Part shown: piece after piece, positions 14,760 through 25,253 of the stretch
How positions within the stretch are numbered: the first letter of the stretch is position 1
Layout: every line of letters begins with the position of its first letter
Assembly (NCBI GenBank): GCA_000526255.1
Contig: JAFS01000002.1
Coordinates: forward strand, 372,001 to 436,000
Length of the DNA: 64,000 nucleotides
Source: Verrucomicrobia bacterium LP2A
GTDB lineage: Bacteria > Verrucomicrobiota > Verrucomicrobiia > Methylacidiphilales > Methylacidiphilaceae
Direction: 5' to 3'
Position numbers and translations under genes: made by a program
The notes under the pieces: model-generated
Databases searched by the model: none
What the model saw: only the letters and a program-made list of their open reading frames with translations
What the model was told of the DNA's origin: nothing

Positions 14760-16493
14760 TCAGCCCGTTCCGTAGCCAAGACGCTCGAGCTCTTCCCCAG
14801 CCGCCGCGACGAGCGACCCTAGGTTGTCCCGTCCGAATGAAAAGGGCACTCCGGCAGCGGTAAAAAGCTCGGGAAGGGTCTTCGAGCCTCCGAAGGCGAG
14901 CGCCCGTCGGTACGCATCCAAGGCGCCGGCAGGGTCGCTCAAGGATCGCCTCCAAATCCCCAAGGCGCCCAGCTGGGCGATCCCATACTCGATGTAATAG
15001 AAGGGATACTCGAAGATATGGAGTTGCCGATGCCAGAGGGAACGCAGAACCCCTTCGTACCCGGACCAGTCCTCTCTTCCTCCGAAACGCCGCACCAACT
15101 CTTCCCAGGAGGCAGCCCTCTCGTCCCGGGAATGACCGGGATGGGTGTAGAGCCAGTGCTGGAACCCGTCCACCACTGCCATCCAAGGAAGGAAGCGAAG
15201 GATTCCCTCGAGATGGTTGCGGCGAGCCCGCCGCAGCTCTTCTTCTCCGTAAAATTCTCCCAGATGGGGGGCGGCCAAAAGCTCCATGGACATCGACGCC
15301 ACCTCGCAAAATTCCAAAGGAGCGGAACGATAGGCATAAAGCGGCTGGGTACGGGCAAGAAGGGTATGAAACGCATGGCCGCTCTCATGCAGCAGGGTTT
15401 CCAGGTCTCGGTGGGTACCGACCGCGTTCATGAAGATGAAGGGCAGTCGAGCTTCGGAGAGCATGCTCTGGTAGCCGCCAGGGGCCTTCCCCTTTCGATT
15501 CTCGAGATCGACCAAGTTGTTCCGGTGCAACTGCCCGAAGAGATCTCCCAACGGTTCGTCGAGGGCGCGGAACACCTTTTCGGTCTTCTCCAGCAGCTCG
15601 GCACTCGCCCGAAACGGGCGAAGAGGGGGCTTCCCCTCGATGTCGACCGCCAGATCCCAGGGACGCAGACGATCCACCCCGAGCCGCTTTCCCCGCCGGA
15701 CATCCATCTCCCGGCAAAGAGGCACGACCACTTCTTCGATCGTCCGACCGAACTCGAGGCAATCTCCCGGAGTGTAATCGAATCGCTCGGCGCGCGCGAA
15801 GGCATAGTCGCGGTAGTCAGGAAAGCCGGCGCCGGCAGCGATCTCCCTTCGCAAAGCAAGAAGGCGATCGAAAATCTCCTCCAACATTTCGGCGTCTTGC
15901 CCCCTGCGCCGGGCGATCTGCTCCCAGGCCGTCCGCCTCCTCTCTCGATTCGGCTCCTCGAGCACCCTTCCTACCTGGGCGAGCGTCTGCTCCTTCCCGT
16001 CGAAGAGGATCGTCATCGCCCCGATGACCTTTTGATATTGCTGAGAAAGGCGCGCCTCCTCCGTCTCCCGTGCGATATTCTCCTCGCGAAAGAGGCGGAC
16101 CTGCATTTCCACGCTCCGCCGGAAGACCGCGTAAGAATCGGGGAGCGCATCGATGCACGGGTGCTGGCAAAAGGCGCGGAGGATTCCCATCTGCCGCGCC
16201 TTCCTCCACGGATCGACGACGGTGAGAATTTCCAGATACGCTTTCTCGCGCTCCGGATCGTCCGTCTGAGCGGTCATCGCGATGTAGCGCTTGGCCCGCA
16301 CTTCGTCCATCGCCGCCTGGACCTCGTCGTAATGACCCAGCCAGGCTTCCAAAGCGGGCACCGATCGGGCGTCGCCCAGCTCTCGTTCGAGTCGCCCAAA
16401 ATGCTCCTCGAGATCGGGTAGTGAGCAGAGGTCGGTCTCGACGGGGAGAAAAGTGCGAGGAGCAAAGGGAGCCACGGGGGCGAACGCGTTCAT
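14760..16493 (-). CDS. pepF: M3 family oligoendopeptidase (PepF-like)
   Basis: 577 residues, M3 metallopeptidase size. The zinc-binding HESGHAFHT (HExxH) is near residue 375, followed by the downstream Glu region FCEVASMSMELLAAPHL, and by the family closing motif FYYIEYGIAQLGALGIW. It degrades short cytosolic peptides. The start (ATG at 16493) gives the MNAFAPVAPFAPRTFLP N-terminus; a far upstream in-frame extension to 17276 overlaps the preceding gene and is not believed. It lies 44 nt after the PHP-glycosyltransferase gene and may be the last gene of that operon. Confidence 0.88.
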   Translation of the reverse strand: MNAFAPVAPFAPRTFLPVETDLCSLPDLEEHFGRLERELGDARSVPALEAWLGHYDEVQAAMDEVRAKRYIAMTAQTDDPEREKAYLEILTVVDPWRKARQMGILRAFCQHPCIDALPDSYAVFRRSVEMQVRLFREENIARETEEARLSQQYQKVIGAMTILFDGKEQTLAQVGRVLEEPNRERRRTAWEQIARRRGQDAEMLEEIFDRLLALRREIAAGAGFPDYRDYAFARAERFDYTPGDCLEFGRTIEEVVVPLCREMDVRRGKRLGVDRLRPWDLAVDIEGKPPLRPFRASAELLEKTEKVFRALDEPLGDLFGQLHRNNLVDLENRKGKAPGGYQSMLSEARLPFIFMNAVGTHRDLETLLHESGHAFHTLLARTQPLYAYRSAPLEFCEVASMSMELLAAPHLGEFYGEEELRRARRNHLEGILRFLPWMAVVDGFQHWLYTHPGHSRDERAASWEELVRRFGGREDWSGYEGVLRSLWHRQLHIFEYPFYYIEYGIAQLGALGIWRRSLSDPAGALDAYRRALAFGGSKTLPELFTAAGVPFSFGRDNLGSLVAAAGEELERLGYGTG

Positions 16494-16537: not shown

Positions 16538-18955
16538 TCAATGCGGTCGTTCCGTCGGAGATCCGACCGATTCCCAAAATCGGCCGAAGGCCTGCTCCCA
16601 ATTCCACGATCGCCGAACTTCTTCCGCTATCCTTTCCCGCTCGGCAAGAGAGGGAGCAGCAGTCAGCAGAGCGGAGACCGCGCGCGCCCATTCTTCCCGA
16701 GAGCCGGCTCGGCATGCGCGCCCCATCCCGAACTGGGTCAGAAGCTCCGGGGGGCCGCCCACATCCGATACCACGACCGGCAGCCCGGAGGCCATGGCTT
16801 CGAGAACCGCATTGCCGAATGTATCGGTCGTGCTTGGGAAAACGAAAATATCCGCGGAAGCGTAAGCCTGGCTCAGATCCCTGCCGGTCAAGACCCCGGT
16901 AAAGAGCGCTTCGGGAAGAAGGCGCATCAATTCCGGGCGATAGGGTCCTTCTCCGACGAACGCGAGGGTGAATTTCAGGCCTCGACTGCGCAATGCTTCG
17001 CAGACCGCCGGAAAAAACCCGAGCTCCTTCTCCTTGGAGATCCGTCCCACGTAGAGGAGCACGGGGCCCGCGGCCCCCCGTCGCGTCCAGAAATCGGGTT
17101 GCCGGAACGAGGGATGAAAGGAATCGACCTCGATGCCGCGCGGGAGAATCGCCAGCTTTTCCTCGGGCAGACCCCGCTTTCTCCAGGAACGGAGGTAGGT
17201 GGAAGAGTTCACATAGGTCTTCGCCATCTGGCCGTAAAACCAGTCCATGTAGCTCCATGCCAGCCCTTCCATCCACGAGTCCTGGCTGAGAAAGCGGGTG
17301 TACTGCGGGAAGTCGGTGTGGTAGATGCCCACCGTTCGCAGACCGAGGATCTTCCCGATTGCCAGCGCGGAGAGCCCGATCGGTCCGGGCGTGCTGACGA
17401 TCAGTTCCGTAAATCGCTCCTTGTGCACGAATTCGAGGAGGTCAAAAAAAGGAGGAAACGCGAGTTTCTGCAACTCGTATTCCGGGATCGCAAACTCGCC
17501 GATCGGAGCAAAGTTCCGAAAGCGGATTCCGTCGACTTTCGGATGGGCCCGCGAGGTGACGACCGTCAAATCCGCACCAGCCCGGGAAGCGGCTCGGGCC
17601 ATCGCCTGGATCGTCCTCGTCACTCCGTTGACCTCGTCAAGCGTATCGGTAAACCACGCCCGTTTGCACGAGAGGATCTCGGCCGGAGGCGAGGAGAGGT
17701 ACCGGCGGCAGAGATCCCGCAGGAACCCACGATCAACGCCCTGGCGTTGAAAGGCCAGAAGGTGGGGAGCAGCCGCCGCCCCGACAGGCAGAAGCCCCGC
17801 GACGGACTGGAACGCTTCGAGCACGCTCCCTCGCCCCAGCTGGGCAACCGCCCCGCCCAGGAGACGATAGGCCAATTGGTTCACGAGATAGGAAGCGACG
17901 CGAAACGAAGCGTCGACCGGCGTTGCCGCCCGCCCGATGATCCGATCGATCTCTCCCCGAACCTCGGCGTTGGTAAAGAAATCGGCAAAGGCGCGTACCA
18001 GCGTCCCCTCCCCGGGCTTGAGCAACTCGAAGACTTGCCCGCTGCGCACCGCCGCCGCAAGGTGGCCGATCCGTTCTCCCAGGGAAAATGCCGTTGGGTT
18101 TTTCCCGGAGACAAAGCGCTCGGCGATCTTTTGCAACAGAGCCGCCGCCAAGGGCGCGGACTGTCGAAGCCGCTCCTGAGCATACTGGAATCCGATGTTG
18201 TAAAAGGCGATCGAGACGCACGCCGGGTCGCCAGGCACCCCGCCGCCCGTTCTTCCCCTCCCGGAAAAGAGCTCCCGGAAAAACCCGTCGATGGTGCCGT
18301 CGTCGCCGACTTCCGTCCACAATGTCCCTAGGGAAAGCCCCCCGTGATCATTCGATCCCCCCACGAAAATTTTGCGATGGCACTGGCCATCAACGGGAGC
18401 TATCCCTTGGTGCTTCGCCATTTCGGCGATTCGCTCGGGTGTCAAGGCAAGCAGGCAGAGACGAGCGATCTCCTGCGGTAGGCCGGGGCGGCTGCCGTCC
18501 GCCGTCTCGAACGCGCGAAAGAGCAAAATCAGCTTCTCGAAGTGATCGGGCGAAAATTTCCCGTTGAGATTTTCCAAAGGGTGAGCAACCGCATGAGGAA
18601 TCCTCCTCGACCGGAGAAACGATGCCAGTTCCTCGATATCGGGAGCGAGCTCGTGAATGCGCGGATGGTCTGCCTCCCGGATGTTCCAGACCAACAGGTG
18701 AATCTCGCATCCGTCGGCAAAAAAGGTCGTTACCTCCTCGCTCAGGAAGACGTCGGGATGCCGCTCCCGCATCTCCAGGCACCCGTCGATGCGATCATGA
18801 TCGGTGATCGTCTTCCAGGTCATGCCCGCCGCGGAGAGCTTCTGATAGAGGATCTCCGGATCGGTGTAGCTCTGCCGGCAGCCAATCTTCCGCAAGATCC
18901 ACTCGGAAGGCCGGTCCGAATAACGGGAATGAAGATGGAGATCAGCTCGAGACAT
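16538..18955 (-). CDS. Two-domain protein: PHP phosphoesterase fused to a GT4-type glycosyltransferase
   Basis: 805 residues. The N-terminal ~220 residues form a PHP domain with its metal-ligand motifs apparently intact: DLHLHSRYSD (HxH), TITDHDRIDG, a Glu/His pair in SEEVTTFF...CEIHLLVW, AVAHPLEN and SNDHGG. Residues ~230-410 are an Ala/Leu-rich helical segment that I do not recognise. From about 420 a GT-B glycosyltransferase of GT4 type follows, with EVNGVTRTIQAMARAA, YHTDFPQYT, VLLYVGRISKEKELGF, FVGEGPYR and the nucleotide-sugar motif PSTTDTFGNAVLEAMASGLP. The GT half resembles transferases acting on phosphatidylinositol or diacylglycerol acceptors. No signal or membrane segment. The start overlaps the deacetylase-like gene by 14 nt, indicating one operon. 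Confidence 0.85.
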   Translation of the reverse strand: MSRADLHLHSRYSDRPSEWILRKIGCRQSYTDPEILYQKLSAAGMTWKTITDHDRIDGCLEMRERHPDVFLSEEVTTFFADGCEIHLLVWNIREADHPRIHELAPDIEELASFLRSRRIPHAVAHPLENLNGKFSPDHFEKLILLFRAFETADGSRPGLPQEIARLCLLALTPERIAEMAKHQGIAPVDGQCHRKIFVGGSNDHGGLSLGTLWTEVGDDGTIDGFFRELFSGRGRTGGGVPGDPACVSIAFYNIGFQYAQERLRQSAPLAAALLQKIAERFVSGKNPTAFSLGERIGHLAAAVRSGQVFELLKPGEGTLVRAFADFFTNAEVRGEIDRIIGRAATPVDASFRVASYLVNQLAYRLLGGAVAQLGRGSVLEAFQSVAGLLPVGAAAAPHLLAFQRQGVDRGFLRDLCRRYLSSPPAEILSCKRAWFTDTLDEVNGVTRTIQAMARAASRAGADLTVVTSRAHPKVDGIRFRNFAPIGEFAIPEYELQKLAFPPFFDLLEFVHKERFTELIVSTPGPIGLSALAIGKILGLRTVGIYHTDFPQYTRFLSQDSWMEGLAWSYMDWFYGQMAKTYVNSSTYLRSWRKRGLPEEKLAILPRGIEVDSFHPSFRQPDFWTRRGAAGPVLLYVGRISKEKELGFFPAVCEALRSRGLKFTLAFVGEGPYRPELMRLLPEALFTGVLTGRDLSQAYASADIFVFPSTTDTFGNAVLEAMASGLPVVVSDVGGPPELLTQFGMGRACRAGSREEWARAVSALLTAAPSLAERERIAEEVRRSWNWEQAFGRFWESVGSPTERPH

Positions 18956-19682
18956 AGTGAAGATAGGTGAGAGGGCGGCCTCCTCGATCGAGAGTCCCCT
19001 TGACGATCCGTTCGATCTGGCTGCGAATCGGGCGATAGACGAAATCTGATGGATGGAGGCTCACGCGCATCACGTTCCGAACCGAATCCCGGGCAAGGAA
19101 GCCATTCCAGGCGAGAGAAGAGGCTCTGCGCCAACCCGCCCGGGTGCTCCAACAATGGGTCCGCGCGGGAGTCCATTGTTCCACCGGGCGTAGGGTCAGG
19201 ATCCCCCCGATCCGCGTTGTATACCGAAAACCTTCCCGCGCCAGAAGCTGCGGCAGCCCCGAATCCATCAGCCAGCCCGGAGCCACGAATCCTTCGGTAG
19301 GCCAACCCTGCGCTGCAAAGAGCCCGCGGGCGAAGCGGAGGCGCTCACCGGCCGTGGTCTGCGGCAGGTCGAAAAACTCCGCTTCCCGCCGGGTATAGAT
19401 CTCCGTCCAAAACCAGCTCCGCAGCCCCTTCGCCCCGGCCTCGCGCGAATGGAAGCAACCATGCACGACCAGTTCGTCTCCCTGTTGCCTTTGGAGATCG
19501 ACCCACCGACAAAACTCGGGATCTTCGCAGAAGGACGGACCCTGGTGGTAGGCGGGAATGACGAGCAGGCTCGCTTCTTTCACCCCCCATTCCCGCAGCT
19601 GCTCCCGCTGTCGGGACACGAGCGCAAGAGACGCCGGGTGGAGGTCGTGGAGAGAGACGATCAGCGCTGTCCCCTCTTTCAT
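18942..19682 (-). CDS. DUF2334/polysaccharide-deacetylase-like protein
   Basis: 246 residues. IVSLHDLHPASL at the N-terminus, a VHGCFHS segment (metal-binding HxxxH pattern) near residue 75 and APGWLMDSGLP near 135 place it in the NodB/DUF2334 deacetylase-like superfamily. The catalytic Asp-His-His set looks present (HDLHP and HGCFH). No signal peptide, so it would act in the cytosol, on a glycan intermediate. The ATGA overlap with the upstream GNAT gene and the 14-nt overlap with the PHP-GT gene couple the three. Confidence 0.75.
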   Translation of the reverse strand: MKEGTALIVSLHDLHPASLALVSRQREQLREWGVKEASLLVIPAYHQGPSFCEDPEFCRWVDLQRQQGDELVVHGCFHSREAGAKGLRSWFWTEIYTRREAEFFDLPQTTAGERLRFARGLFAAQGWPTEGFVAPGWLMDSGLPQLLAREGFRYTTRIGGILTLRPVEQWTPARTHCWSTRAGWRRASSLAWNGFLARDSVRNVMRVSLHPSDFVYRPIRSQIERIVKGTLDRGGRPLTYLHYVSS

Positions 19683-20389
19683 TCGTGCGAAGGCGGATGG
19701 GAGCCGTAAAGCCGGGGGTTGGCCTGAAGGTCCTTGACCACCGTGCAGAGATAGACCGACCCCGGGAAACGGTCGCTATACTTGGTCACCGCCACCCGGT
19801 CCACCACTCGAAATCCGTAGCGCTCGAACATCTTTTCCCCTCGGCGGCGATCGAAGACAACGATCTGGCCATAGACCGCCTTTTCGCCCTTTTGGACGAG
19901 GTAGCCCAAAAAAGCGTCTACCAGTTCCCGGGTGCGCGTCACGCTGCGCCACGGCGCCAGAATATTAAAATGAAAATGGGGAATGCCCGGAAGGCTTCGT
20001 GGAGATTCCCGCCGCCCGTTCCAAATGAGCCAGTGCAAATAGCGACGGCTAGCGGGACAATAGAACGGATAACGAAGGAGCATGAGCAGGAAGAGCTGCA
20101 CGTTATGGAAGGCATGATACCAAGACTTGGCACGCGGGTTCCGACATCCCGTCAGGTAGCCGACAATCGTTCCTCCCGCCTCGCAAACCAGCGTCGATTC
20201 CGGCTCTCTGTCCGTGTAGTAGGACGTCAGGTAGTCGGCGAAGAGCTCGCGATCTTCGAAGACCGAATCGATCGGGGAGCCCAAAAAGCCGGTATCCGCG
20301 CAGACCCGACGCACTCCCTCCCGATCGCTCGCCCGGTAAGGACGAATGGCAACGGCGGCCGTCTCTTTCCCCTCTGCGGTCGTGTCCAT
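19679..20389 (-). CDS. GNAT family N-acetyltransferase
   Basis: 236 residues. Starts with a standard GNAT opening (AIRPYRASDREGVRRVC) and has TLVCEAGGTIVGYLTGC for the beta4-beta5 acetyl-CoA face and GEKMFERYGFRVVDRVAV near the end. A middle stretch (FHNVQLFLLMLLRYPFYC) is unusually hydrophobic and may sit on a membrane or bind a lipid-linked acceptor. It lies 27 nt after the glycosyltransferase and overlaps the deacetylase-like gene by 4 nt. N-acylation of an amino-sugar or lipid is a reasonable guess in this company. Confidence 0.75.
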   Translation of the reverse strand: MDTTAEGKETAAVAIRPYRASDREGVRRVCADTGFLGSPIDSVFEDRELFADYLTSYYTDREPESTLVCEAGGTIVGYLTGCRNPRAKSWYHAFHNVQLFLLMLLRYPFYCPASRRYLHWLIWNGRRESPRSLPGIPHFHFNILAPWRSVTRTRELVDAFLGYLVQKGEKAVYGQIVVFDRRRGEKMFERYGFRVVDRVAVTKYSDRFPGSVYLCTVVKDLQANPRLYGSHPPSHE

Positions 20390-20416: not shown

Positions 20417-21628
20417 CTACTCCGCCCGGACCGCTCCTAGCGGAAGTGCTGCGGTCTCCTCGGTCCGATCGGCCCCTTCGATCGCTAACCGATAGTACCG
20501 CCACAGCGCCGTGAAGACGTTCGGCCACTGGTAAATCTCTCTCGTCCGCAGGGAAGCGGAAAGCCCGATCTGCCGCAGGTCCTGACCGGCGGCATGCTCG
20601 ATCGCTCCCGCAAACTCCTCGGGGCAGTTTCGCTTCGCCCACAAGTCGAGGCCGGCATAGATATGATCATCCATGTTGGTCCCGCGGATGCCGATGACGG
20701 GGCAACCGCAGGCTTGGCTTTCGACGGCGACCAGGCCGAAGGTTTCGACGACTCCGGGATGGACGAAAAGATCTGCCGCCCGGTAGCATCTCCGTAGCTC
20801 GGTCTTCTTTTCGATATACGGCCGCCAGATCACCGCATCGGTTTCCTTCTGCAACCGCTGCACCTGCTTCCTCAGCGGTCCGTCACCCACCACAAGGAGC
20901 CGGTAGTCACGTCGATGCGAAGCTCGAAGAGTTCGGAAGGCGTGCAGCAAGACCGATATGTTTTTTTCTCGAGCGAGCCGCCCCACGTAGAGGAGCAAGA
21001 AGGCGGGATCGGGCACCGCGAGCTCTTCCCGCCATACCCGATCATCCGGCCCGGGACAAAACGTCTCCGCATCGACCCCGAGATGAATCGGGATCGTGTT
21101 GGTCAGTCCCCAGGATTCCAAAAGCTTCCGGAGCCTGATCGAAGGCACGAAGGTGTACTGGAAACGGGAATACAAGCGGACGATGTATTTTCGGGCTGCA
21201 GAGAGGACCATCTCCTCGACCAGACGGCCCCCGAAGCGGCAAGCCGTGCGCAAATAAGCATCCGGAAAGTGGGAGTGATAGAAGCTGACGGCCGGGATGC
21301 CCATCTCGCCGGCCCCTCGCAGGACGGTCCAAGCTAAATGATAGGGGTCCCCGGACTCGACAATATCGGGACGAATGTCGCGGAGAATCGAGCGGACCAG
21401 GGAAACGTTGCAAAGGACTCGGTAGCGGGAGGTCTGGTCGACCTTCGGGGAAGCAATCGTGATCAGATGCGTCCTTCCCTCGCTCTGATGCGACGTCCTC
21501 TCTCCCGGGACGATCAGGTAATGCTCGTCCTCCGTTCGCCTCCTGACATGTTCCTGCTTTTCGCCGAGATAACGTCTCACCCCGCCGCTCCGCGGCGAAT
21601 AAAATTGGGTTACGTCACAGATCTTCAT
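20417..21628 (-). CDS. GT4-family glycosyltransferase, first gene of the glycan cassette
   Basis: 403 residues. N-terminal Rossmann half with VTQFYSPRSGGVRRYLGEK and SFYHSHFPDAYLRT; C-terminal half with LLYVGRLAREKNISVLLHA, VVGDGPLRKQVQRL and HPGVVETFGLVAVESQACG, the GT4 sugar-nucleotide motif. The GGVRRY loop and YHSHFP are shared in type with the glycosyltransferase half of the PHP fusion, so the two may act in sequence on one acceptor. Starts with ATG at 21628; the divergent partner is a porin 206 nt away. Confidence 0.88.
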   Translation of the reverse strand: MKICDVTQFYSPRSGGVRRYLGEKQEHVRRRTEDEHYLIVPGERTSHQSEGRTHLITIASPKVDQTSRYRVLCNVSLVRSILRDIRPDIVESGDPYHLAWTVLRGAGEMGIPAVSFYHSHFPDAYLRTACRFGGRLVEEMVLSAARKYIVRLYSRFQYTFVPSIRLRKLLESWGLTNTIPIHLGVDAETFCPGPDDRVWREELAVPDPAFLLLYVGRLAREKNISVLLHAFRTLRASHRRDYRLLVVGDGPLRKQVQRLQKETDAVIWRPYIEKKTELRRCYRAADLFVHPGVVETFGLVAVESQACGCPVIGIRGTNMDDHIYAGLDLWAKRNCPEEFAGAIEHAAGQDLRQIGLSASLRTREIYQWPNVFTALWRYYRLAIEGADRTEETAALPLGAVRAE

Positions 21629-21834: not shown

Positions 21835-23301
21835 GTGCACAAGCAACCCTATTCTGTTCCGGCAGCCTTCCGGGCGCCCCATTCGGATGTCCCTGCCAAG
21901 CAATGTCGCTTCCCTTCGGTCTCCCTGCCCTCCCGCCTCCTTGCCGCCTTAGCCTGGATCGGGCTCGCCTCCGCCCTTCCGGCAGAGGCCCAGTCCTCCG
22001 AGCCGCCCCTCTCCGCCAGTCCCGCCGCGCCGGAGGCCGCCGAGCTACAGAAGGCGCTGGAAGAGGGGGGGATCGCCATCCAGACCGCGCGCCCGGGAGT
22101 TCGACTCAGCGGATATCTCGACAGCTCCTTCGTCGACAACTTCATTCCCCCCAATGCCCGAATTCCGACCCGAATGGCCGACGACGGCATCGCCGGCGGA
22201 GGGTTCAATTTCAACACCGTCCGGCTCCTTCTCGAAAAGCCCCTCGATGACCAGAACCGCTGGGAAACGGGATTTCGCGCGGATGTTTTCGCCGGCCAGG
22301 ATGCAGCTTCCATGGGGGGACCGGACAATCTGGCTGGCCTGGGCACCCCGACGGAGGCTGGAAACGCACGGAATAGCGCGAGCTTCCTGCTCGCCGAAGC
22401 CTATGTCAGCTTTCGGATCCCCGTCGGCAATGCCATCGACCTGAAGGTGGGAAAGTTCGTTCCTCCTTTGGGGTTCGAGGTGATGGAGCGTCCGGGCAAC
22501 GTCAATTTCTCCTATGGAAATCTCTACGCCAACCTCATCCCGGAGATGGTCACCGGCATGGAAGCGGTCTATCGACCGCTCGATTGGGTGGAAACGACGC
22601 TCGGGGTGCTCGACGGATCCTTCAACGCCGCGCGAGCGGGATTCCCGTTTTTCGGCGAGAGCACAAATACCCTCGGCAATGGGGCAGCCTATCTTTTCCT
22701 CGCCTCCGCGGCATTCGATGCGCCGGCCCGAAATGCCCGCCTGATGGTGAGCGGCCTCTACGGACCGAACGGGGCAAACCCACCCGGCTTTGGATTGGCT
22801 CCTTCCCTTCCGGGTAGCGGAGTCTTTGTGGAAAGCCCCCTGAACCAGGCCGCACCGTTCTTTTTAGGGGATGTCTGGGGAGAGTGGATTCCCAAGGCCG
22901 CACGCGACCGGCTCCTTCTCGCCTGGGAGACGACGGGCGGCTTCTACGAAGGCGTCGGCGTCCCCGGAAATGGCCCGCTCCAGTCGTCGAGATGGCTCGG
23001 GGCCAGCCTTTGGGCCAAGTATCAGGTGAACAGCCTCGCGAGCATCGCCCTGAGGACCGATTGGATTCATGGGAGCGCCAATGAGATCCTTTCCGATCAC
23101 GTAGGACCGGCCGACATCTATAGCGCCACCGGGACCGTCGCCTTCGACATCTGGGAGAATCTGATGGTGCGAACCGAATTCCGGATGGATTGGGGCGCCG
23201 CCGTCTACGGGACCCCGCTTTCCCCCATGGGAGCCCTTCTCTTTCCCATCTCGAGCGGCCCCGCTTTCCTCTGGGCGGTGGAAACCGTCTACTCGTTTTG
23301 A
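21835..23301 (+). CDS. Outer-membrane beta-barrel porin, BBP2/OmpL-like (lone paralogue)
   Basis: About 488 residues from GTG at 21835. A signal sequence is visible at about residues 33-52 (LLAALAWIGLASALPAEAQ), so the true start may lie further in. The mature protein shares the architecture of the three porins at 48-54 kb: a short helical stretch (ELQKALEEGGIAIQ), the GYLDSSFVDNF strand, GIAGGGFNFNTVRLLLEKPL, RWETGFRADVFAGQDA, FVPPLGFEVMERPGNVNFSYG and a C-terminal strand ending in VYSF, the usual outer-membrane assembly signal. It lacks the NAPSFNQVP insert of the others and is the shortest. No sigma-54 site was found upstream. Confidence 0.75.
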   Translation: MHKQPYSVPAAFRAPHSDVPAKQCRFPSVSLPSRLLAALAWIGLASALPAEAQSSEPPLSASPAAPEAAELQKALEEGGIAIQTARPGVRLSGYLDSSFVDNFIPPNARIPTRMADDGIAGGGFNFNTVRLLLEKPLDDQNRWETGFRADVFAGQDAASMGGPDNLAGLGTPTEAGNARNSASFLLAEAYVSFRIPVGNAIDLKVGKFVPPLGFEVMERPGNVNFSYGNLYANLIPEMVTGMEAVYRPLDWVETTLGVLDGSFNAARAGFPFFGESTNTLGNGAAYLFLASAAFDAPARNARLMVSGLYGPNGANPPGFGLAPSLPGSGVFVESPLNQAAPFFLGDVWGEWIPKAARDRLLLAWETTGGFYEGVGVPGNGPLQSSRWLGASLWAKYQVNSLASIALRTDWIHGSANEILSDHVGPADIYSATGTVAFDIWENLMVRTEFRMDWGAAVYGTPLSPMGALLFPISSGPAFLWAVETVYSF

Positions 23302-24230: not shown

Positions 24231-25253
24231 GTGCGAATCGCGCAAATTGCCCCTCCGGTGGAGCGCGTTCCCCCAGAAGGCTATGGAGGAACGGAGCGGG
24301 TCGTTTCCTTTTTGACGGAGGCGCTGGTCGACCTCGGACACGAAGTCACTCTTTTTGCCAGCGGGGACTCCCTCACCCGAGCAAGGCTGCGTTCCGTCTG
24401 CCCGCAAAGCCTCCGCAAAATGCCCGATTGCCGGGATTACCTCCCCTATTTCATCCTGGAGATCGATGCGGCGCTCCGGTCGGAAGCCGAGTTCGACCTT
24501 CTCCATTTTCACACGGAGTTTCTGCACTTCCCCTTGTTCCGAAGCCGACCGAACCGATCTCTCACGACTCTCCATTTCCGGCTCGATACGCCCGAGGTGA
24601 GCGCTCTCTTCCATGGCTTCCCGGAAATGCCGGTTGTCGCCATCTCCGAAGCTCAGCGGCGCAAGCTTCCGCATGCGCGCTGGGCGGGAACCATCCACCA
24701 CGGGCTGCCCAAAAACCTCTACGCCCTGGGCACTGGCGGCGGAGGGTATCTCTTCTTCCTCGGGCGCATCTCCGCAGAGAAGCGGCCCGATTTGGCGATC
24801 GAGATCGCCCGGAGGGCGGGACTCGACCTTGTCATCGGCGCCAAGATAGATCCTCGCCATGACGCCGAGTATATCGAGGCGGTTCGTCCGCTTCTCTCTC
24901 TCCCCCACGTCCATTTCCTGGGAGAAGTGAGCGAACGCGAGAAGCAAGCCTTGATCGGAGACGCGGTGGCCATGCTCTTCCCGATCAATTGGCCGGAGCC
25001 CTTCGGCCTGTCTGCGATCGAAGCGCTCGCCTGCGGCACACCCGTCATTGCCTTCCCGTACGGGGCGATCCCCGAAATTCTCGAAGCCGGGACAACAGGC
25101 TTCCTGGTCCAGAATGTGGAAGAAGCCGCCCAAGCGGTGCCCCTTGCCGCGCGACTCCCCCGGAAGCAGATCCGGCTCTGCTTCGAAAGGCGATTTACTG
25201 CGGAACGGATGGCCAGGGACTATCTGGCAATCTATGAAAAGCTGCTCGGTTAA
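24231..25253 (+). CDS. GT4-family glycosyltransferase
   Basis: 340 residues, GTG start. GGTERVVSFLTEALVDLGHEVTL with an upstream PPEGYGGTE loop matches the bacterial GT4 group that often acts on exopolysaccharide or sugar-nucleotide acceptors. The C-terminal half has GYLFFLGRISAEKRPDLAIE, a shortened middle, and INWPEPFGLSAIEALACGTPV with the E-x7-E motif. It overlaps the convergent carboxypeptidase gene by 4 nt. No strong ribosome-binding site was seen. Confidence 0.85.
   Translation: MRIAQIAPPVERVPPEGYGGTERVVSFLTEALVDLGHEVTLFASGDSLTRARLRSVCPQSLRKMPDCRDYLPYFILEIDAALRSEAEFDLLHFHTEFLHFPLFRSRPNRSLTTLHFRLDTPEVSALFHGFPEMPVVAISEAQRRKLPHARWAGTIHHGLPKNLYALGTGGGGYLFFLGRISAEKRPDLAIEIARRAGLDLVIGAKIDPRHDAEYIEAVRPLLSLPHVHFLGEVSEREKQALIGDAVAMLFPINWPEPFGLSAIEALACGTPVIAFPYGAIPEILEAGTTGFLVQNVEEAAQAVPLAARLPRKQIRLCFERRFTAERMARDYLAIYEKLLG

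Follow-up and report, generated by a model that had tools for sequence, protein, structure and literature searches.

The window analysed here is a stretch of 64,000 nucleotides from Verrucomicrobia bacterium LP2A (contig JAFS01000002.1, positions 372,001 to 436,000). Its genus is Methylacidimicrobium, in which M. tartarophylax and M. cyclopophantes are two congeneric genomes. Four genes on the minus strand form a tight operon in the order GT4 glycosyltransferase, GNAT-like acyltransferase, DUF2334 deacetylase and, last, a gene in which a PHP domain is fused to a further GT4 glycosyltransferase (PHP-GT4). The features of the operon are as follows.

20417..21628, minus strand: second GT4 glycosyltransferase, GpgS-like (NCBIfam NF053787, 271 bits).
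19679..20389, minus strand: GNAT-like acyltransferase (weak Pfam GNAT match, 0.021), overlapping the deacetylase gene by 4 nt.
18942..19682, minus strand: DUF2334 deacetylase, GpgD-like (Pfam DUF2334, 1.2e-20; NF053788, 170 bits), overlapping the fusion gene by 14 nt.
16538..18955, minus strand: PHP-helical-GT4 fusion gene, one ATG-to-TGA frame of 805 amino acids with full-length homologues.
18254..18955, minus strand: PHP domain and PHP_C segment, residues 1-234 (hhalign, Pfam on relatives, ligand counts).
18350..18352, minus strand: Asn202 codon, AAT, at the catalytic Asp position of D-x-H (alignments).
17672..18253, minus strand: all-helical middle domain, residues 235-428 (structure prediction).
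16541..17671, minus strand: GT4 glycosyltransferase domain, residues 429-805 (Pfam, fold, conservation).

A first-pass annotation of this DNA proposed that PHP and GT4 domains are joined in one chain, and this is confirmed by the single open reading frame, by recurring homologues and by the Pfam and hhalign results given below. The frame is not a chance one, because an intact frame of about 800 amino acids recurs in the genus, the order and the phylum. The AlphaFold2 model, computed from an alignment of 43 homologues (mean pLDDT 88.9, pTM 0.87), begins with an alpha/beta PHP domain that ends near residue 234, continues all-helical to about residue 428 and closes with a GT-B transferase. The PHP-GT4 fusion is real and ancient, and no published description of it was found in literature searches. 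The extra N-terminal domains apparent in two homologues (L104, 1504 aa; L106, 1295 aa) were rejected, as these frames are overextended upstream of the PHP start.

The same fusion was sought in other genomes and recurs in all seven genomes of Methylacidimicrobium, in most of the 60 genomes of the order and in 55 of the 388 genomes sampled across Verrucomicrobiota; a pattern-based scan of genome contigs returned Verrucomicrobiota only. The GT tree broadly tracks taxonomy and, judged from these computed sequence comparisons, the fusion is vertically inherited across the phylum. No case was found in which the two halves are encoded separately in unrelated surroundings, and GTs that stand alone still have the operon around them. 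In five genomes of genus g12 the GT half alone is present, at an unchanged operon position, the PHP and middle domains having been deleted; because g12 nests with full support within the clade of fused proteins, this absence represents one loss. In L076, the fused relative closest to g12, three ligands are already changed (H7Q, E74T and H204Y). Two apparent splits of the gene were not accepted as natural. One, in the single-contig genome G011 (L072:8313 region), arises because a single base next to a G run is missing in comparison with G007, which is either a real frameshift or a sequencing error; the other, in G037, lies in a poor assembly in which neighbouring genes are frameshifted too. A distant relative of 714 aa (L107:6578-8722) has the PHP and middle domains but, of GT4, only a weak C-terminal part that appears to be truncated.

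The PHP half of the window's protein is not recognised by Pfam. Comparison of residues 3-234 with ordinary PHP/PHP_C proteins from genomes of the same order gave an hhalign probability of 96.8% (E 2.6e-10), and among 43 family members PF02811 was matched in 16 (best 1.4e-4) and the PHP_C family PF13263 in 20 (best 6e-6). The clear alignment was obtained with a reference set of the COG0613 type, and HisK-type PHP proteins aligned weakly; a fold search with the full model is uninformative on the PHP domain, since its best 50 matches were all of GT4 type. From these profile comparisons we assign the half as a true PHP domain. It resembles TrpH/COG0613-type PHP phosphoesterases with PHP_C over residues 3-234 in fold region and in the aligned ligand motifs, but differs from them in having Asn in place of the Asp of D-x-H, an insertion of about 13 residues after motif I, and the fused GT4 domain. 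The structure prediction models the PHP domain with high confidence, and the domain is not collapsed.

The aligned ligands of this domain are H7, H9, H53, E74, H86, H125, N202 and H204, position 202 being Asp in most relatives. The tally covers eight aligned positions, a ninth ligand having no confident placement. The metal ligands had been described as retained, which stands for seven of the eight aligned positions but not for the canonical Asp, so that the full set of PHP metal and catalytic residues is not present here. In particular, an NDH motif taken as intact aligns to the canonical S-D-x-H, which places Asn202 at the canonical Asp. This position corresponds to D226 of Mtb DnaE1 (register checked on the 7pu7 alignment), where the D226N substitution leaves metal content unaffected and abolishes exonuclease activity (PMC5636811). 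All eight aligned ligands are kept (HHHEHHDH) in 34 of 72 distinct homologues; HHHEHHNH is found in 14 of the 72, all from family f4 or from two genera of the window's family, one of them the window's own genus. Erosion goes further in family f22, where several more PHP ligands are gone (for example, HHDSSSDH) with the GT residues kept. The adjoining D203 is invariant (72/72 homologues) and could, from the alignment, compensate for N202. Within the genus, dN/dS ranges over 0.055-0.106 in PHP, 0.044-0.078 in the middle domain and 0.061-0.091 in GT; PHP and GT are thus under equally strong purifying selection, and the PHP domain is not decaying. This selection and the invariant D203 leave room for a retained activity. 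The best reading nonetheless appears to be that the PHP domain of the genus would still bind metal, its chemistry having been lost or altered.

The middle domain was described at first as matching nothing familiar, and this description stands. It has no match in Pfam, no credible relative among PDB sequences (best E 0.11, a designed helical protein) and no match among PDB folds (best E 1.0). A search of plasmid records with the PHP and middle domains together gave no match.

The GT half matches Glyco_trans_1_4 (4e-29) and Glyco_transf_4 (5e-20) in Pfam, and has the GT-B fold with both the N- and C-terminal Pfam domains of the GT4 class. H546, R638, K643, D711 and E719 are conserved, Asp711 and E719 being the first and second acidic positions of the GT4 E-x7-E motif, and nearly every one of the 72 distinct homologues has the catalytic residues; the nucleotide-sugar and active site had been claimed to be intact, and the conservation agrees. 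Matches to known folds include MshA and BshA, and sucrose-phosphate synthases are also among the nearest. With MshA, BshA and PimB' the GT half shares the fold, the nucleotide-sugar site and the catalytic residues; however, identity is below 20% in the fold alignments and only the fusion has PHP and helical domains in front. The products of MshA and of sucrose-phosphate synthases are phosphates.

A glycolipid setting had been suggested for the fusion, and the operon supports it by holding GpgS-like and GpgD-like genes. Both are homologues rather than called equivalogs: the upstream GT4 scores 271 bits against a cut-off of 480 for the GpgS equivalog NF053787, and the DUF2334 protein 170 bits against 280 for the GpgD equivalog NF053788, a cut-off that is reached by no sampled Verrucomicrobiota genome. 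Because of these scores the exact lipid may differ. The homologue of the GNAT-like gene at L080 has a clear Pfam GNAT match (1.2e-6). When a strong GpgD-like gene was defined as one of at least 150 bits among the 388 genomes of the phylum, PHP-GT4 was present in 21 of the 22 genomes having such a gene and in 34 of the 366 others (Fisher p 6e-19 by genome and about 3e-6 by family, the family count being approximate and kinship ignored in both). In G246, G333, G350 and G375 the GpgD-like gene and PHP-GT4 are on separate contigs. The GpgS-like gene (GT4a) adjoins GNAT in most of the genomes examined, even when apart from DUF2334 and PHP-GT4. Because G197 has GT4a-GNAT and DUF2334 and lacks PHP-GT4, the fusion is an add-on to a GT4a-GNAT-DUF2334 core. 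Many deeper-branching genomes have PHP-GT4 and no GpgD-like gene, and for this reason the founding role of PHP-GT4 may be a separate one. Two kinds of fusion were seen within the core. In family f4 a single frame of 487 aa encodes both GNAT and the DUF2334 deacetylase (L080:5781-7241 and L079:9525-10985), and in a genome without PHP-GT4 one of 703 aa, adjacent to DUF2334, encodes the GpgS-like GT4 and GNAT (L179:6357-8465).

The closest known system is GpgSDF of P. aeruginosa, for glucosaminyl-phosphatidylglycerol, which shares with the module a GpgS-like GT4 and a GpgD-like DUF2334 deacetylase in one operon; in P. aeruginosa as well as in E. coli, GpgS and GpgD have been shown to yield GlcNAc-PG and GlcN-PG (PMC12713373). 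The module differs by its GNAT and PHP-GT4 genes, by homologues that score below the equivalog cut-offs and by having no linked flippase, two PF03706 genes being situated elsewhere. HexSDF and UgtA of C. difficile, for aminohexosyl-hexosyl-diradylglycerol, are also similar in that two glycosyltransferases and a deacetylase make an amino-sugar glycolipid, whereas the pathway description in that source mentions neither a PHP fusion nor GNAT, and the likeness drawn here is one of described pathway (PMC11898633). An increase of GlcN-PG in acid is cited for Bacillus megaterium (in PMC12713373).

The probable product of the conserved four-gene set, in these acid-loving, methane-eating bacteria and their kin, is a membrane lipid that carries an amino sugar. 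From the gene content we infer the substrates, the order of the steps and the product as follows. The GpgS-like GT4 would put an N-acetylhexosamine on a lipid acceptor (phosphatidylglycerol in Pseudomonas), and the GpgD-like DUF2334 protein would then deacetylate this lipid. PHP-GT4, the fourth enzyme of the module and predicted to be a cytoplasmic, probably membrane-associated, retaining GT4, would transfer another sugar, either making the acceptor or extending the product, and GNAT would probably acylate an amine. The roles that we infer for the PHP and helical domains are docking or regulation of the transferase, the PHP domain of the genus being most likely metal-binding and no longer a normal phosphoesterase. 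We lean, with some reserve, towards this reading of PHP-GT4 as a glycosyltransferase of an amino-sugar glycolipid module with a metal-binding PHP domain that is regulatory, structural or used for docking. Its more specific form is offered tentatively: the PHP domain would be a pseudo-phosphatase, naturally changed at the catalytic Asp yet metal-binding and under selection, and with the new helical domain would serve for sensing or docking and so control the lipid glycosyltransferase of a four-enzyme Verrucomicrobiota aminoglycolipid pathway. The findings suggest that Verrucomicrobiota, which include extreme acidophiles, have a membrane-lipid pathway that has not been described. They also provide a natural series that starts with an intact PHP, passes through a single catalytic change and the erosion of ligands, and ends with the whole domain lost; with it, the use of PHP to the glycosyltransferase can be tested.

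Other readings of the fusion have to be weighed. The protein may be a bifunctional enzyme whose GT half would produce a phosphorylated glycoside from which PHP then removes the phosphate, on the pattern of fused sucrose-phosphate synthase/phosphatase or of MshA followed by a phosphatase. The ligands kept here and in the 34 relatives with all eight, the purifying selection on PHP, and nearest folds that include MshA and the sucrose-phosphate synthases are all consistent with it, but N202 in the window's genus is not, and a required step is unlikely to be lost without replacement, as it would have been where PHP is eroded (f22) or deleted (g12) and GT stays in the operon. The first-pass annotation had held that both halves look active and had proposed such a two-step synthesis with dephosphorylation. 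Because of N202, at the Asp whose change inactivates DnaE1, the erosion in f22 and the g12 deletion, with GT retained in the operon, that model is doubtful here and is not general, and we consider the bifunctional enzyme unlikely. PHP might instead control the transferase by turning over, as a phosphodiesterase, some nucleotide or glycerophospholipid, being active where all ligands are present and weakened here. PHP enzymes can indeed be phosphodiesterases (PMC5460133), and about half of the distinct homologues have all eight aligned ligands; however, N202 is again a problem in the window's genus, and we regard the proposal as distinctly improbable. A low-molecular-weight thiol-like compound made by mycothiol logic (GT4, phosphatase, deacetylase and GNAT) would have four identical activity classes and a GT fold nearest to MshA and BshA, but is very improbable given that no cysteine ligase is seen in the module, that the deacetylase is a DUF2334 protein matching the GlcNAc-PG deacetylase model and not of MshB/LmbE type, and that the GlcN-PG synthase model scores best for both GTs.

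Several genes near the operon or similar to it were also recorded. A divergent BBP2/OmpL-like porin gene (21835-23301, plus strand) adjoins the operon start, an adjacency that is kept in some relatives, and a third GT4 (24231-25253, plus strand) lies near the operon on the opposite strand, outside the conserved module. An M3-family oligoendopeptidase (14760-16427, minus strand; TIGR02289, above cut-off) is directly downstream, and it is also downstream in other f1 genomes and in G019. In another phylum, the megaplasmid of Thermomicrobium roseum (L188:5989-8731) carries, in this order, a gene for a DUF2334 deacetylase and two for glycosyltransferases, possibly a similar lipid cassette.
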